A stretch of 64,000 bases of DNA from Odiellus spinosus (Eukaryota > Arthropoda > Arachnida > Opiliones > Phalangiidae), in assembly GCA_963920705.1 (NCBI GenBank), contig OY987239.1, positions 12,945,004 through 13,009,003 of the forward strand. Direction: 5' to 3'. Made by a program: the position numbers and the translations under genes. Under the pieces are notes generated by a model. That model saw only the letters and a list, made by a program, of their open reading frames with translations. It was not told the origin of the DNA and made no database searches. Position 1 is the stretch's first letter, and each line of letters begins with the position of its first letter. Below are positions 4,880 to 57,525 of the stretch, one piece after another.

Positions 4880-21012
<16,133 letters not shown>

Positions 21013-25714: not shown

Positions 25715-26165
25715 TACAAATTTTCGCGGTTTTTTTGTGTTGGAAGATCTTTAATAACTAAAACAGGGTCTGAAATAAGTATTTTTCTATTCGAAATTAA
25801 TTTAGGTTAATTTAACATAGTTTTTGTGTTTTGTTTGGAAAAGAAGAAGCAATCTTTATAGCACACTAGGCTTTGTTCCACTGGTAATAACGGGCGCTCT
25901 TCATTTATCAAAGCCCGTAATATTAGCTTTAATTAGTTAATTTTGGCTGATAATTTAAAAAATAACTACGTCCGCGTGAAGAATCGAATTCAAATTTTGC
26001 GCCTCAAATTAACCAAAAGAACTTGTTTTTTCTCAGCCAATAGGGTGCCTTGAAAAGTATTCCGTAGCGCCAGCTGATGTTAGAGTCAATATAAAAATGG
26101 CTACCGGATCAGCTGGAGCCGCTAGTTTGTTACAATTGTCCATTGAGTGAAGTTAAGTTATTTAG
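25715..26165 (+). repeat. Copy 1 of NDUFS7 promoter and first exon
   Basis: About 440 bp nearly identical to 28615-29033. It includes an ATG at 26097 and the same first nine codons (MATGSAGAA), with a potential donor after 26124 in the same phase as the real NDUFS7 exon 1. It lacks about 14 bp (the GCGCGGTGCTAGCG stretch) present in the other copies. Read without splicing, the frame stops after 17 codons. Confidence 0.85.
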
Positions 26166-26289
26166 TTAAATGAATTTTAATAGAAAAGGCAAAGGACCGG
26201 ACTATTACGAGGAAATGACCAAGTTTTAATTGATATTGGACAAACGAGAAAATCCATTAGCCTTAATATTGTAGAAAGTTAAAAGAAAG

Positions 26290-26463
26290 GTGCTTCAATG
26301 AACTGGTAGATATGAGCAGAACGATTGGCATGGAAGAAAATAAACACTGCAATAATGTCGTCAATATCAATGCGCTGAAAGCTATGTCAGAAGAATTCCC
26401 AAAATCTGAGACAGAAATGCTTGCCATTCCGCACGTTACTCGTACAGTTTTTAATTTTATAAA
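26290..26463 (+). pseudogene. Orphan exon resembling a RecQ/BLM HRDC domain
   Basis: From 26290 the frame reads CFNELVDMSRTIGMEEN, then INALKAMSEEF, ETEMLAIPHVTRTVF and NFIK, followed by a GT donor at 26464. The spacing and the helix signature, ending in an I-P-H-V-T turn, look like the HRDC (helicase and RNase D C-terminal) domain of BLM-type RecQ helicases. No helicase core is found in the window. It lies just 3' of the first copy of the NDUFS7 promoter/exon 1 and just 5' of an AT-rich array. It may be a captured exon or the relic of a duplicated helicase gene. HRDC identity is moderate. Confidence 0.5.
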
Positions 26464-26464
26464 G

Positions 26465-27022
26465 TAAATTTTAAAATTTTTAAATAATGTTAAATTAATA
26501 ATTTTAAATGTTAAATTAATAATTTTAAGTAATTAATAAAAATGTTAAATTAATAATTTTAAATAATTAATAAAAATGTTAAATTAATAATTTTAAATAA
26601 TTAATAAAAATGTTAAATTAATAATTTTAAATAATTAATAAAAATGTTAAATTAATAATTTTAAATAATTAATAAAAATGTAAAATTAATAATTTTAAAT
26701 AATTACTAAAAATGTTAAATTAATAATTTTAAATAATTAATAAAAATGTTAAATTAATAAAAATGTTAAATTAATAAAAATGTTAAATTAATAAAAATGT
26801 TAAATTAATAAAAATGTTAAATTAATAAAAATGTTAAATTAATAAAAATGTTAAATTAATAAAAATGTTAAATTAATAAAAATGTTAAATTAATAAAAAT
26901 GTTAAATTAATAAAAATGTTAAATTAATAAAAATGTTAAATTAATAAAAATGTTAAATTAATAAAAATGTTAAATTAATAAAAATGTTAAATTAATAAAA
27001 ATGTTAAATTAATAAAAATGTT
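26465..27022. repeat. AT-rich tandem array, 34-bp then 17-bp units
   Basis: About seven 34-bp units containing AATGTTAAATTAATAATTTT, followed by about 16 units of the 17-bp half. It directly abuts promoter copy 2. Confidence 0.9.
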
Positions 27023-27310
27023 AAATTAATTAGTTAATTTTGGCTGATTATTTAAAAAATAACTACGTCCGCGTGAAGAATCGAATTCAAATTTTGCGCC
27101 TCAAATTACCTTAAAGCGCGGTGCTAGCGAACTTGTTTTTTCTCAGCCAATAGGGTGCCTTGAAAAGTATTCCGTAGCGCCAGCTGATGTTAGAGTCAAT
27201 ATAAAAATGGCTACCGGATCAGCTGGAGCCGCAAGTTTGTTACAATTGTCCATTGAGTGAAGTTAAATGACATAGTTAAATGAATTCTAATAGAAAAGTA
27301 AAAGGACCGG
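27022..27310 (+). repeat. Copy 2 of NDUFS7 promoter and first exon
   Basis: About 280 bp matching copies 1 and 3, with an ATG at 27207, the MATGSAGAA codons and a phase-compatible donor after 27234. It shares with copy 1 about 100 bp downstream of the exon that copy 3 lacks, and is then interrupted by an inverted-repeat element. It begins directly at the end of an AT-rich array. Confidence 0.85.
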
Positions 27311-27328
27311 ACTATTGGTTGCCGAGGC

Positions 27329-27905
27329 CAAATTGAAGAATAGGTCCCGGTAGGATAGGTTAGGTTAGGTTACGTATGGTATTATTATGCTAAGCCTTGG
27401 CACCGGGACCTATTCTTCAAAACTCCCGGTTGCCGATTGTACAAAATGACCTCGAAAAGATTGTTGGTGTGAACCCTAGAACTAAACCAACAACTTTCAG
27501 GTATGTTGCCTCATTCTCAAATTTCTTAAGTAATTTGTTGCAGCCAAGCTACTCTGTGTTCAAGAAAACAATTTTGTCTGATTTATCAATTAAGGGTTGT
27601 TTAAAAGTATACAAACAAGCGTTTCTCACTCTATCTTGCTAACCTTTTTGGTTAGATTTGCGGATGATGAATAAAAGCTCAACTTACGCCGCAACATTCC
27701 AAGTACTGAATGAATTTTCGGCCTTATTTCAGATAGCTACTCGAGTGATATTTAATATTTCCATTATTGTTTCTAAATCACAAAAATGAGAGAGAAATAA
27801 TGGTGCTAATTGGGAGTTTTGAAGAATAGGTCCCGGTGCCAAGGCTTAGCATAATAATATGAGACCTAACCTATCCTACCGGGACCTATTCTTCAATTTG
27901 GCCCA
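27329..27905. repeat. Inverted-repeat element with about 95-bp palindromic ends
   Basis: The left end (27329-27427) and right end (27815-27905) are reverse complements, and each is itself a small palindrome bounded by TTGAAGAATAGGTCCCGGT and its complement. The left end contains a (GGTTA)3-like tract. The interior holds an orphan exon. No target duplication could be defined. Confidence 0.7.
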
Positions 27906-28392
27906 CGTTTTATTTATGATATTTAAGACGAACTTAACTAACATAATTCCGCGTGGGTTAATACCCATTAGATGCGCGGGTGCTATTTTGAGTACTCTAA
28001 TACCGAGTTGGACGAAGGGGGCCCAAAGGGAATCATAAATTTTTATCGATGGGAGCCCCAAAATTGATTAAATAGCCAAAGCCCAAAGATTTGCCTAGGA
28101 GGATAAAAAAATCCTTGCGCGGCTATTCTACTGATGGTAGAGTAGCTGCGGAAGGCCGTGGGTTTTAAATTCCACCCGTGAGTCAACATTTTTGTCACGG
28201 GTGGGTGCATTTCTATCATCTGTAATATACTTATCAAACAAATTTTTTTCACAAATTTAAAAATATTACAGACCACCAAAAATTAAGAACATCATGGAAT
28301 TTGCTGATGAAGGCTGTGCCGTTGTTGCTTCATTAGCCCAGAAATATGGTTCGCTGGCTGAGGCTGTTCTTAAAAGAGAAAAACATTTTTTA
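27420..28392 (+). pseudogene. Two orphan exons of unknown gene
   Basis: A first segment, about 27420-27500, reads LPIVQNDLEKIVGVNPRTKP, then TTF, ending at a good donor (GTATGT). A second, 28272-28392, reads PPKIKNIMEFADEGCAVVAS followed by LAQKYGSLAEAVLKR and joins in phase (split Arg codon), ending before GTAATA. The phase match and protein-like composition suggest real exons, but I do not recognise the family. The first segment lies between two inverted copies of a small palindromic element and follows a duplicated NDUFS7 5' region. Possibly another piece of the same source as the HRDC-like exon. Confidence 0.4.
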
Positions 28393-28394
28393 GT

Positions 28395-28612
28395 AATAAA
28401 TTAATAATTTTAAATAATTAATAAAAATGTTAAATTAATAATTTTAAATAATTAATAAAAATGTTAAATTAATAATTTTAAATAATTAATAAAAATGTTA
28501 AATTAATAATTTTAAATAATTAATAAAAATGTTAAATTAATAATTTTAAATAATTAATAAAAATGTTAAATTAATAATTTTAAAAAATTAATAAAAATGT
28601 TAAATTAATAAT
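28395..28612. repeat. AT-rich tandem array, 34-bp units (second locus)
   Basis: About six copies of the same 34-bp unit as the array at 26465, abutting promoter copy 3. Confidence 0.9.
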
Positions 28613-28614
28613 TA

Positions 28615-29005
28615 ATTTTCGCGGTTTTTTGTGTTGGAAGATCTTTAATAACTAAAACAGGGTCTGAAATAAGTATTTTTCTATTCGAAATTAATTTAAT
28701 TTAGGTTAATTTAACATAGTTATTGTGTTTTGTTTGGAAATGAAGAAGCAATCTTTTAGTACACTAGGCATTGTTCCACTGGTATTAACGGGCGCTCTTC
28801 ATTTATCAAAGCCGTAATATTAGCTTTAATTAGTTAATTTTGGCTGATAATTTAAAAAATAACTACGTCCGCGTGAAGAATCGAATTCAAATTTTGCGCC
28901 TCAAATTAACCAAAAGCGCGGTGCTAGCGAACTTGTTTTTTCTCAGCCAATAGGGTGCCTTGAAAAGTATTCCGTAGCGCCAGCTGATGTTAGAGTCGAT
29001 ATAAA
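28615..29005 (+). promoter_or_regulatory. NDUFS7 promoter/5' UTR region (copy 3, functional)
   Basis: Sequence directly upstream of the NDUFS7 start codon, present twice more upstream (25715 and 27022). Conservation among copies runs through the start codon and first exon, so the transcription start is probably inside the shared block. No TATA box is certain. Confidence 0.5.
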
Positions 29006-31232
<2,227 letters not shown>

Positions 31233-31467: not shown

Positions 31468-33441
31468 TTAAGCGTCAATCTTCGTTAAAAGTTGTTCGCT
31501 TAAACTAGAAACTTTATTAAACATTTTTTCAAAATGTTTCGAATAAAGTTCGCAATGATCTCCGGGTAAAAAACTCGCGTTTCCGCGTAACCGTAAATTT
31601 CTTATTTCAAAGAATTTAAAAGTGGCGAAATAAATTTCATCATCTACGCAATTTTGGGCCGCTTCAAGAAATTTACGAGCGGAAATATTATCGACCAATC
31701 CGGCGCTTCGTACGAATTTTAAAGCCGGTAAAACTTGTCTTTGCGATAATAAAACTTCGATAATTTCTTCGTTAGCTTTTCCCAATCGTTTTAACATATC
31801 TAAGGCTAATTGATTAGACGCTGGATAAACGTTCCGTAGACTTAACATTAAACAAGCTAACGGTTTTGAATCGTTAAAGATATGATATTGCAAAAACTGG
31901 TGCAATTGATAAAAACATCCGTGTTGTACCATTATGTTAATTATTAATTCGTACAAATAATGTTGAGCTTGAATTTGATTGGCCGATAATGAACGCAAAT
32001 ATTCCGTCATAACTGCCACGATAAATTTATAACTAACGTTCTTATTCTCTTCAAACGTCGAGAAAACGTTAGTATACATATCGGATTGCTCGATAACTAC
32101 GCAACGTTTTGTAGAAATATTCGTGGAACGAACGGCTTCAGTTCCTTCGTTCAACGAATGTTGCTTTAAAACTACGTTAAGTTTGTCAAATATCTTTGAT
32201 ATTGTCATTATCGGTAATTTATCTACGGAAGAAAGAGCGCTTTGACAAACTCTCAATATCGAATCTTTCGAGTTTTCCCTTAAAAGTAGGAACCCGATTA
32301 ACATAAATTTATCGGTAATTAATTCTTCTAATGGGTGTAAATTTAACTTAATATGCCATAAACATCCTATTTTAGCGTCAATTATTATATCTGGTTGAAA
32401 TATAACCCAATTTGGGGAATAAAGTTCGCAGAAATCAGAAGTATCTTTCGAACTCGAAGGTACAGTTGTTAATTTTATCTTAAAAGGCTTAATAGGATGA
32501 GGGCTAATTAACGGTTTATGATAAGTAACGAAGCCATCAGTCTCACCTGGTAATTTAATGTCAAAGATTAAAGAAGTTTTTGAGTGTTGGTGATGGACTA
32601 AAATTAAATCTTCAACGATATTAATAGCAAATCTTCCGCTTAAGTCTAGTCTTAAAGTATTGGTTTTTCGCGGTGGTCCTTCTTTTTGTAACGTATATAA
32701 AACTAATTCAGCTCCGGCTGATGAAGTTCCCGATCGTACTTGATGACGTAGAACGATTATTCTTTCTTTTCGATATATTGATCCCAGAACCACATCTCGT
32801 TCAAAAAGGCTTAGCTTCGCGGGTTTTGGAATTACGGGAAGATCTACTTCAAATTTGGGTAAACTATACATCGTTCCTGGTCTAAATTGAAACGAATGCA
32901 GTATGTTTCCTAAAGGACCCGAAGACACGACTAATAATGATGATTCAGGGTGATACACGAACCAGTTTGTCGTAACTTTATGGGTTTTAAGTGACTTGAA
33001 GTTACGGCGATCAGGAAACACTTGGTATAATTCAACTCCGTGATCAGTTACGAATACAACTTCGTTGATTGAAGGCCACACGAAACCTAATATTTGAGTA
33101 CTTCTACCTTTGCAGCACTGAGAGTATTCGATAGGGTCAATCGCCCCGTCAGAGAAATTGACGAATTCAACCGATTTTTGACATCTTTGAATCGCCAATA
33201 TTTTTTGATCAGGTGAGAACTTCATCGATATAACGTCGCCTTTATCTTCCATACGGAAATCTATCGTTGTTTTCTCATTTTTAACGACTACACCAGTCGC
33301 TCCTCCAGAACGTACGACAAATACTTGTCTATTAACTTCGTCAAAAAAGACATTAGTTATTTTACTGACCGGTTCGAAAGTAATTGGACTAGGGTCAAGC
33401 TCCAAAAAATAATCACCGCCTTCATTAGCCTCCATTTTCAC
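31468..33441 (-). CDS. RMC1: Regulator of MON1-CCZ1 complex (RMC1/Mic1), single exon
   Basis: One uninterrupted frame of 657 residues, the same length as I recall for vertebrate RMC1 (C18orf8, Mic1). Recognisable blocks: FFDEVNRQVFVVRSGGATGV near the N-terminus, QPDIIIDAKIGCLWHIKL in the middle, and the C-terminal Mic1 domain with LHQFLQYHIFNDSKPLACLM, LDMLKRLGKANEEIIEVLLS and DNISARKFLEAA. The N-terminal half is a WD-like beta-propeller and the C-terminal half is helical. RMC1 is a subunit of the Mon1-Ccz1 guanine-nucleotide exchange factor, which activates Rab7 on late endosomes and autophagosomes and is needed for cholesterol export from lysosomes. Being intronless among intron-rich neighbours is notable, but no poly-A tail or other retrogene mark is visible, and it sits head-to-head with PGGT1B. 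Confidence 0.95.
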   Translation of the reverse strand: MKMEANEGGDYFLELDPSPITFEPVSKITNVFFDEVNRQVFVVRSGGATGVVVKNEKTTIDFRMEDKGDVISMKFSPDQKILAIQRCQKSVEFVNFSDGAIDPIEYSQCCKGRSTQILGFVWPSINEVVFVTDHGVELYQVFPDRRNFKSLKTHKVTTNWFVYHPESSLLVVSSGPLGNILHSFQFRPGTMYSLPKFEVDLPVIPKPAKLSLFERDVVLGSIYRKERIIVLRHQVRSGTSSAGAELVLYTLQKEGPPRKTNTLRLDLSGRFAINIVEDLILVHHQHSKTSLIFDIKLPGETDGFVTYHKPLISPHPIKPFKIKLTTVPSSSKDTSDFCELYSPNWVIFQPDIIIDAKIGCLWHIKLNLHPLEELITDKFMLIGFLLLRENSKDSILRVCQSALSSVDKLPIMTISKIFDKLNVVLKQHSLNEGTEAVRSTNISTKRCVVIEQSDMYTNVFSTFEENKNVSYKFIVAVMTEYLRSLSANQIQAQHYLYELIINIMVQHGCFYQLHQFLQYHIFNDSKPLACLMLSLRNVYPASNQLALDMLKRLGKANEEIIEVLLSQRQVLPALKFVRSAGLVDNISARKFLEAAQNCVDDEIYFATFKFFEIRNLRLRGNASFLPGDHCELYSKHFEKMFNKVSSLSEQLLTKIDA

Positions 33442-33572: not shown

Positions 33573-35731
<2,159 letters not shown>

Positions 35732-42268: not shown

Positions 42269-42369
42269 CTAAGAAGTCTTCGTTTCGTGGGGAAACTTCT
42301 CAGTATTTTGACCTTCTAAATGGAAACTGGCAGCGCTGTTTTGTAGTTAAGTTAGCAGACGATATTAAA

Positions 42370-43470
42370 ATGGCTGCTTCCATGTCGGTCGTGTTTCGAA
42401 AATGTTTAATTTTCGGGGAAAAATCGCGTTATTTAAGCCCTTTATTTTACAATCAAGAAAGATATGCTTCGCGTAAAGGTAAACGCGCTCAAAAAATTGC
42501 CGAACATAAGGAATTGAAGCAAAGAAAACTGGAAGAAATGACTAAAAAGTCTAACAAAGTCCCCGGATTCTTGAAGATGGACAAGTCCCATTTGGATAAA
42601 TCTTTTAGAAACCGTAGGAGAGACATGAGTTTTTATTTAAAAACTCCTCCGTTCGACGACGTTTGGTACGAGAAATTCCATAAGAAACACGCTTGGATTT
42701 TCGAACAAGCCGTTGCTAATCATCGGGAAACCCATCATCCAACGATGTTAAATAAACCCGACGCTTTATTACACGCTACCATCGAATTGAGTCTGAAAAC
42801 TAATAAGAAAACCAAATTTGTTGGAAGGTTTAACAGTACCATTTGTTATCCGAACGAGTTTGAATACGGAGAAGAACGTAAAGTCGTCGCTTTTGTTAAA
42901 GACAGAGACGAACAGAAAAAAGCTCTCGATGCTGGAGCTGCGTTGGCTGGTGGATTAGAAGTCATCAAAGCTTACCAATCGGGTGATATTAAAGTTGGAG
43001 ATTACGATCATATTGTAGCTCATCCCGATATCCTTATGGATTTATCAACAATCAGAGGATTATTACGAAAACGTTTTCCAACCAAACAAGCGGGAAATTT
43101 TGGAGTTAACATCGTCGAAATGGTTAACAAATTTAAAACTGGGATCGAATACATGATGAATAAGGATACCTTTGACGAGAGTTTCGGTTGGATTGATACC
43201 GTCATTGGAAGATTGAATCAAACTGACGAAGAATTGAAGGAAAACGCGATCCGTTTATTGGAAAATATCGAAAGTTATCGATCTCCAAATGTTAAAAGTA
43301 ATTTCATCGTTGATGTCATTTTATGGTCTCCACCGTCGACTGAAAAGTTTTATTTGCGTTATTGGGATTTGTTGAAGAAATATGATCAAGATTTGGCCCA
43401 AAAATATACGATTATTGGACCTGATAATTACGCTTTAAAGTTCAACGAAAAGGAAGAAACTCGGAGTTGA
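42370..43470 (+). CDS. MRPL1: Mitochondrial ribosomal protein L1 (uL1m), single exon
   Basis: A 366-residue frame. The start at MAASMSVVFRKC is chosen because it opens a basic, Ser/Arg-containing presequence. The same frame extends upstream to 42253, inside a MITE, with no family similarity. The body has the L1 fold: ALLHATIELSL, RKVVAFVKDRDEQKKALDAG, GDYDHIVAHPDILMDLSTIR, LLRKRFPTKQAGNFGVNIVE and a C-terminal IESYRSPNVKSNFI. uL1m forms the mobile L1 stalk of the mitochondrial large subunit. A charged N-terminal extension (KGKRAQKIAEHKELKQRK) is usual for MRPL1. AATAAA at 43530, 60 bp after the stop. Confidence 0.95.
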   Translation: MAASMSVVFRKCLIFGEKSRYLSPLFYNQERYASRKGKRAQKIAEHKELKQRKLEEMTKKSNKVPGFLKMDKSHLDKSFRNRRRDMSFYLKTPPFDDVWYEKFHKKHAWIFEQAVANHRETHHPTMLNKPDALLHATIELSLKTNKKTKFVGRFNSTICYPNEFEYGEERKVVAFVKDRDEQKKALDAGAALAGGLEVIKAYQSGDIKVGDYDHIVAHPDILMDLSTIRGLLRKRFPTKQAGNFGVNIVEMVNKFKTGIEYMMNKDTFDESFGWIDTVIGRLNQTDEELKENAIRLLENIESYRSPNVKSNFIVDVILWSPPSTEKFYLRYWDLLKKYDQDLAQKYTIIGPDNYALKFNEKEETRS

Positions 43471-52183: not shown

Positions 52184-52753
52184 GTAATACCCTTTTCAGA
52201 CGATTTGGGTCCACTTGATCGACACCCAAATGATCGACTCACAATTGATCGACTCCCAAATGATCGACAAAAGGTCCACTTGATCGACTCCCAAATGATC
52301 GACAAAGGGTCCACTTGATCGACTCCCAAACGATCGACAAAGGGATCAAATGATTGATGCCTTATCCCAAATTACCGACAACAAAGGGTGCATTTGATCG
52401 TTTCCCAATTGGTCAACTTCGTAATAACGATTATAAATAGATTAACCTAACCTAACCTAACCTAACCTAACCTGACCTATACTCGTTACTCGCTAAAAAA
52501 CTGGGCTGTCGATCAATTGGAATGGCTTGTCGATCAAATGGGAGTCGATCAAACGGTAGTCGATCAAACGGACTCCTTGTCGAGCAAATGAACCTAAGCC
52601 TTTCAGACGAGGCGTAACTAGCCGGTTTAATCAGATTTAACCGTGGTTTAATCACAATTAACCTTGGGTTTATTGCACTGAGAAGGCTATGTAAACCTCG
52701 GTTAAATCTGGTTAAACCACGGCTAATTACGCCTCGTCTGAAGAGGGTATTAG
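52184..52753. mobile_element. Host palindromic MITE carrying a nested insertion
   Basis: Outer ends TAATACCC(T)TTTCAGACGAGGCG and complement (TAATACCCTCTTCAG when reversed). The left end is split by the element at 52203-52600. The remaining part has inverted GGTTTAATC/GATTTAACC-type arms. Confidence 0.75.
52203..52600. mobile_element. Nested element with GATCGAC repeats and (CCTAA)n, 9-bp TSD
   Basis: 398 bp, flanked by TTTCAGACG at 52194-52202 and 52601-52609. The left part repeats TTGATCGACTCCCAAATGAT, the middle holds about six CCTAA units, and the right part repeats GTCGATCAAACGG. Copy 2 is at 57058. Confidence 0.88.
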
Positions 52754-57057: not shown

Positions 57058-57525
57058 ATTTGGGTCCACTTGATCGACTCCCAAATGATCGACAAGAGGT
57101 CCACTTGATCGACACCCAAATGATCGACTCACAATTGATCGACTCCCAAATGATCGACAAAAGGTCCACTTGATCGACTCCCAAATGATCGACAAAGGGT
57201 CCACTTGATCGACTCCCAAACGATCGACAAAGGGATCAAATGATTGATGCCTAATCCCAAATTACCGACAACAAAGGGTGCATTTGATCGTTTCCCAATT
57301 GGTCAACTTCGTAATAACGATTATAAATAGATTAACCAACCTAACCTAACCCAAACCTAACCTAACCTAACCTATACTCGTTACTCGCTAAAAAACTGGG
57401 CTGTCGATCAATTGGAATGGCTTGTCGATCAAATGGGAGTCGATCAAATGGGAGTCGATCAAACGGTAGTCGATCAAACGGACTCCTTGTCGATCAATTG
57501 GAAGTCGAGCAAATGAACCTAAGCC
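57058..57525. mobile_element. Second copy of the GATCGAC / (CCTAA)n element
   Basis: 468 bp with the same ends (ATTTGGGTCC...CCTAAGCC). Flanks GTTAAAACG and GTTAAGACC (7 of 9 identical). Internal GATCGAC repeat number differs from copy 1. Confidence 0.85.

Follow-up and report, generated by a model that had tools for sequence, protein, structure and literature searches.

A copy of the Bloom helicase gene probably placed behind the NDUFS7 promoter of Odiellus spinosus and since decayed

In a 64,000-nucleotide stretch of the genome of the harvestman Odiellus spinosus (the window hereafter; C17:12945004-13009003 in a 443-Mb assembly), the promoter region and proposed first exon of NDUFS7 lie in three near-identical 5' blocks in front of the gene, and two of these blocks run straight into pieces of another gene, the Bloom helicase gene (BLM) on contig C1. 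We consider this probably a decayed promoter swap, in which a copy of BLM would have come to lie behind the NDUFS7 promoter, been duplicated together with it and then collapsed. The presence of the three blocks, already reported in a first-pass annotation of this DNA, is borne out: they differ from each other by 2-3% substitutions (ungapped, 5/201 between copies 1 and 2, 9/407 between copies 1 and 3 and 7/213 between copies 2 and 3). With gaps, copy 1 is 92.8% identical to copy 3 (25719-26129 versus 28614-29038) and 91.4% identical to copy 2 (25929-26206 versus 27026-27316), and copies 2 and 3 are 96.3% identical (27026-27239 versus 28826-29038). The AT arrays lie directly before copies 2 and 3, also as first described (positions of all features are given in Table 1).

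The foreign pieces behind copies 1 and 2 trace to a single stretch of C1 (19,235,293-19,263,598) in a search of the animal's own genome; they share one strand and keep their order in each unit. Separate origins of the foreign exons were rejected, as all of them map to this one stretch. Judged by its protein matches, the 3' part of the stretch is BLM: its RQC and HRDC exon gave Pfam matches to RQC (E 1.2e-16) and HRDC (E 7.9e-9) with the Bloom syndrome protein as the best solved-structure matches, and a partial set of exon peptides matched the Bloom syndrome protein with E 1e-128 compared to 3e-65 for the best other RecQ protein. These peptide queries were joined by eye from open frames, and the BLM exon ends are therefore approximate. 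Behind copy 1, what had been annotated as an HRDC-like exon is indeed HRDC sequence, but it is only the interior of the exon and has no native acceptor. Behind copy 2, two phase-matched exons of unknown origin had been noted; these derive from the first two exons of the C1 gene. Intron sequence was kept as well, with matches to C1 intron 1 at 27501-27809 and 27904-28271.

Copies 1 and 2 switch from NDUFS7 to C1 sequence at the same base, C1:19235293. The first 33 nt past this point are identical between the two copies, and 5 of these sites differ from C1. The shared fusion base and the identical 33 nt thus make a single fusion followed by duplication likely. The C1 sequence at the fusion point is TTTCAGTTGAATCAGTTTG, which we take to be an initiator (Inr)-like start region (TCAGTT). 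A GT is met 28 nt on from the ATG of each block, as expected from the annotation, which had a splice donor end each of them; however, in copies 1 and 2 this GT lies in sequence shared with the C1 BLM locus and not in NDUFS7 intron. As the AGT at the join is common to NDUFS7 copy 3 and C1, the sequence that follows the GT 'donor' in copies 1 and 2 is C1-derived.

Both BLM units are heavily damaged. Three deletions mark the copy 1 unit: ∼24.8 kb from exon 1 to the HRDC exon, 28 bp within the latter, and ∼3.1 kb from there to the 3' flank. The copy 2 unit has no counterpart of C1:19235824-19241109 and its exon 2 is cut off by the AT array. Because blocks of this missing stretch are present in another BLM copy, on contig C16, the middle of intron 1 was probably lost from the unit in the window. 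Relative to the C1 parent, the 24.8-kb, 5.3-kb and 3.1-kb gaps, the insertion of an element with terminal inverted repeats (TIRs) and the 28-bp deletion are disabling changes. Reading through from the ATG of the 5' block, the frame stops after 17 codons in both copies; the frame of the BLM ATG runs for 19 codons in copy 1 and for 18 in copy 2, where the TIR element breaks it. No new open frame arises from the joined parts, with early stops in both units. Thus, no coding chimera survives and there is no usable BLM frame, and the proposal of chimeric transcripts with captured exons is not supported for a coding gene, given the early stops, the TIR break, the running of exon 2 into the array and the deletion in HRDC. 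A scan of the window with Rfam gave 0 matches at gathering scores.

We propose the following course of events. A BLM copy of ∼28 kb, introns included, would have inserted beside the NDUFS7 first exon, so that the NDUFS7 5' block ended up on both sides of it, possibly through a staggered break or a template switch, and the BLM 5' end came to follow the NDUFS7 promoter directly. A tandem duplication of the fused unit (5' block, BLM and AT-rich filler) would have come next, as suggested by the fusion point that copies 1 and 2 have in common. The comparison with C1 shows how each BLM copy then collapsed, by deletions at short overlaps, insertion of an element and truncation. A dead duplication is the best supported of the options in the first-pass annotation, which had considered a dead segmental duplication mediated by the arrays; mediation by the arrays is not borne out, as the breakpoints between BLM and array and between array and promoter differ between the units. 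NDUFS7 now most likely uses copy 3 as its working promoter, and we infer that copies 1 and 2 are relics that would serve at most as starts of short non-coding transcripts or as weak extra starts of NDUFS7.

Table 1. Features of the NDUFS7 5' region and of the BLM-derived units (window positions; TRF, Tandem Repeats Finder)
Feature	Position	Strand	Details
NDUFS7 5' block copy 1	25719-26124	+	upstream region, ATG 26097, first-exon-like 28 nt; 13-bp deletion versus copies 2 and 3
C1 locus 5' end and start of exon 1, joined to copy 1	26124-26206	+	C1:19235293-19235375; 13/83 mismatches
Interior of BLM RQC/HRDC exon, copy 1 unit	26201-26452	+	C1:19260206-19260485; 28-bp deletion; 6-nt overlap join; Pfam HRDC E 7.2e-6
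34 bp just past BLM stop codon, copy 1 unit	26449-26482	+	C1:19263565-19263598; 100% identity; 4-nt overlap join
AT array 1	26466-27030		TRF; 34-bp units turning into 17-bp units; bounds overlap neighbours
NDUFS7 5' block copy 2	27026-27234	+	upstream ∼210 bp (half) missing; ATG 27207
C1 locus 5' end and part of exon 1, joined to copy 2	27234-27325	+	C1:19235293-19235384; 88.0%
Short TIR element in exon 1 of copy 2 unit	27326-27427		102 bp; 9-bp target duplication 27317-27325/27428-27436
Remainder of exon 1 (up to 27500) and first part of intron 1, copy 2 unit	27428-27809	+	27428-27599 = C1:19235376-19235547, 27597-27809 = C1:19235611-19235823; 26/385 mismatches, 3 bases counted twice
Second TIR copy, inverted, in intron 1	27812-27903		edge of the ∼5.3-kb gap versus C1 intron
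Last part of intron 1, then truncated exon 2 (28272 onwards), copy 2 unit	27904-28388	+	C1:19241110-19241591; 36/482 mismatches
AT array 2	28397-28613		TRF; 34-bp units
NDUFS7 5' block copy 3	28614-29033	+	adjoins NDUFS7 gene; ATG 29006; 29006-29033 is the proposed first exon
Dispersed repeat within the copy 3 block, shared by copies 1 and 2	28846-28982	+	∼100-135 bp; own-genome matches
NDUFS7 proposed exon 1	29006-29033	+	28 nt
NDUFS7 exon 2	29273-29517	+	protein match, spliced model
NDUFS7 exon 3	29578-29893	+	protein match, spliced model
NDUFS7 exon 4	31135-31232	+	protein match, spliced model

Several observations weigh against a decayed promoter swap of BLM or qualify it. The full-length BLM copy is inferred from pieces and was not seen whole, and a BLM transcription start at the fusion point would follow from the Inr-like TCAGTT. 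The 5' end of the C1 stretch raises a further point: we take exons 1 and 2 to encode the BLM N-terminus by position and splice phase and not by homology, and they could instead come from an adjacent gene that was copied along with BLM. Their peptides (again as joined by eye) gave no Pfam match passing the cut-off, and against solved structures they gave weak WW-domain-like matches (best E 0.0087) and none to BLM. The C1 stretch may then hold two genes, a small one (exons 1-4 or so) with BLM behind it, so that the 5' end of the small gene was captured and BLM was carried along. Although the lack of BLM homology in Pfam and in solved structures speaks for this arrangement, we regard it as rather unlikely. 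C1 exons 1 (19235339-19235448), 2 (19241475-19241618) and 3 (19241725-19241879) form a single open frame when joined, exon 4 and exon 5 (C1:19248840-19249070) are phase-compatible with splicing at a GTAGTA donor behind exon 4, and exons 1-5 lie on the BLM strand, upstream of the helicase exons, which start at about 19251072, close to exon 5. Moreover, BLM N-termini are poorly conserved, which also counts against two genes. If exons 1 and 2 did form a separate small gene, the captured 5' end would be renamed and the history would stay the same. The weak WW-domain-like resemblance lies in the peptide of exon 1; such a domain would not be expected where a BLM gene begins.

The last point against the swap comes from the divergence of its parts. 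While the copy 2 pieces differ from C1 at 62/867 sites (7.2%; 3 bases counted twice), the 5' blocks, at 2-3%, are less diverged (Fisher tests against 62/867: p 0.0002, 0.014 and 0.04). In the first 83 nt, 11/83 sites differ from C1 in copy 2 and 13/83 in copy 1. Between copies 1 and 2 there are 5/234 differences in the block plus the first 33 nt and 7/50 in the next 50 nt (p 0.0014). The Fisher tests were chosen post hoc and the 33-nt break point was picked by eye. A later duplication or gene conversion would explain the lower divergence of the 5' blocks, and selection on promoter function would do so too. The latter would fit copies 1 and 2 still serving NDUFS7 as alternative promoters and first exons, with splicing to 29273 that skips the BLM scraps. 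Both copies have kept the ATG, the 28-nt exon and the GT, and splicing either of them in silico to 29273 gives a full-length NDUFS7 with one residue changed. On the other hand, their donor reads GTTTGT, compared to GTATGA, GTAAGA and GTATGT in the introns of NDUFS7 itself, the upstream half is missing in copy 2, and copy 1 has a 13-bp deletion; we therefore regard working alternative promoters as rather unlikely.

The edges of the captured piece bear on how BLM reached the locus. An unspliced BLM transcript might have been retroposed, running from the start site to near the 3' end with its introns kept and with the AT arrays as the remnant of a tail. The 5' edge lies at the Inr-like A and the 34-bp 3' piece lies 43-76 nt beyond the BLM stop codon (C1:19263520-19263522), where the AT-rich array starts, and both fit such a transcript. 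However, AATAAA begins 4 and 9 nt after this stop codon, so the 34-bp piece is probably beyond the cleavage site. A retrocopy would have no introns, a poly(A) tail and a short target duplication; here introns are kept, the array unit is not poly(A), no poly(A) run was found at the 3' edge, and the flanking direct repeat of 400 bp far exceeds the usual target duplication of a long interspersed nuclear element (LINE). We therefore consider retroposition very unlikely. Even less probable is a combined course, in which DNA copied from an unspliced BLM transcript entered behind the NDUFS7 promoter, creating a target duplication of 400 bp, and use as alternative NDUFS7 promoters still keeps the three blocks alike. 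The presence of several BLM-derived fragments in the genome might suggest that a Helitron or another gene-capturing transposon brought the BLM and NDUFS7 fragments together, but the further BLM copies examined run collinear with the gene over long distances, have differing end points and do not form one repeated unit, and we give such a capture very little credence. Finally, low-complexity arrays between the copies could have led haplotypes or reads to be stacked in tandem during assembly. The 2-3% substitutions, the distinct deletions and the different neighbouring sequence of the copies make a simple assembly duplication unlikely; the joins to the BLM pieces are also specific and separately decayed, and the contig is 13.7 Mb long. 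Of all the explanations weighed, such an artefact seems to us the least probable.

The pieces in the window are one case among several broken BLM copies. Further broken pieces of the BLM stretch are found at C1:19266023-19266282, in a look-alike pair 6.7 kb apart (C1:18580124-18583018 and C1:18586872-18589765), within C1:22484002-22493479 and within C16:5874999-5884644. Stops interrupt the peptide matches of the look-alike pair, of the 22.48-Mb place on C1 and of the C16 pieces. A short repeat (28148-28215) lies inside the intron 1 sequence of the C1 gene and matches parts of four other loci; it has what we take to be a tRNA-promoter-like look.

The NDUFS7 gene itself, for the 20 kDa subunit of complex I, appears whole. 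The spliced model of proposed exons 1-4 gives 228 residues with a Pfam match to the Oxidored_q6 domain (E 5e-29), and its best solved-structure match is the chain LD31474p (presumably a fly clone name; 8esw; E 1.3e-103), which covers residues 53-228 of 228 and leaves residues 1-52 uncovered. Searching the genome with the NDUFS7 protein gave three exon matches, to exons 2-4, all at this locus. A second NDUFS7 gene was rejected on these matches; a TAG in one of them comes from the match running into the intron end. In intron 3, a 20-bp unit that has a palindromic core, TCCAAAAAACGAGTACTCGA, is repeated ∼57 times with 99% matches (29964-31101).

We also searched the genome with the 5' blocks (the counts given are lower bounds). 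With copy 3, the 15 scored matches consisted of the three window copies, 11 short matches overlapping the dispersed repeat and one other short match, so that the repeat is overlapped by 11 of the 12 matches other than the three copies. With copy 1, we obtained the three window copies, 10 short repeat-overlapping matches and two others, one of which is BLM. A genome-wide family of NDUFS7 promoters was rejected, as among the scored matches the block or its downstream half is covered only by the three window copies. The dispersed repeat has a strongly conserved core, CTCAGCCAATAGGGTGCC, in most aligned copies, and it could be a small transposon supplying promoter sequence.

Elsewhere in the window, Pfam matches mark RMC1 (31471-33432, minus strand), an exon with a prenyltransferase domain (34053-34532, plus strand), a gene for a ribosomal L1 family protein (42274-43470, plus strand) and a zinc-finger exon (7560-8192, plus strand). 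Interstitial arrays of TAACC, which we take to be the insect-type telomere motif, are present at 52443-52479 and 57333-57374.

The locus can be read as a fossil of promoter swapping, whose sequence still shows where the fusion lies, that it was duplicated and how a large gene then collapsed. It also illustrates how fragments of a conserved gene may be mistaken for captured exons if the parent is not searched for. If the spare promoters were used, the locus would matter more. A literature search for an NDUFS7-BLM fusion or for BLM copies gave nothing relevant among the listed titles and abstract openings. Duplicated (unprocessed) pseudogenes as a class keep their introns and accumulate stops, deletions and insertions. 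The BLM units in the window likewise keep introns and carry stops, deletions and insertions, but unlike such pseudogenes the BLM copy bears the promoter and first exon of another gene instead of its own. Chimeric gene duplicates, a class defined by Katju 2012 (PMC3449122), combine in a single unit sequence copied from two distinct sources, of which one or both are genic. The locus described here has such sources in the NDUFS7 5' block and the C1 BLM locus; it differs from the class in its dead frame, in its three promoter blocks and in having two units that decayed separately. In Drosophila yakuba, rearrangements bring a promoter, 5' untranslated region and start codon to other sequence, and many or most of these are expected to be transient (PMC6776367). 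As in those cases, a rearrangement would have set the promoter and start codon of a gene before foreign sequence. The D. yakuba cases were segregating, described as mostly young and supported by RNA, whereas the downstream sequence in O. spinosus is a known gene (BLM) and is ∼7% diverged. We count the locus, as a decayed example, among the chimeric duplicates with a captured promoter, which are a known kind.

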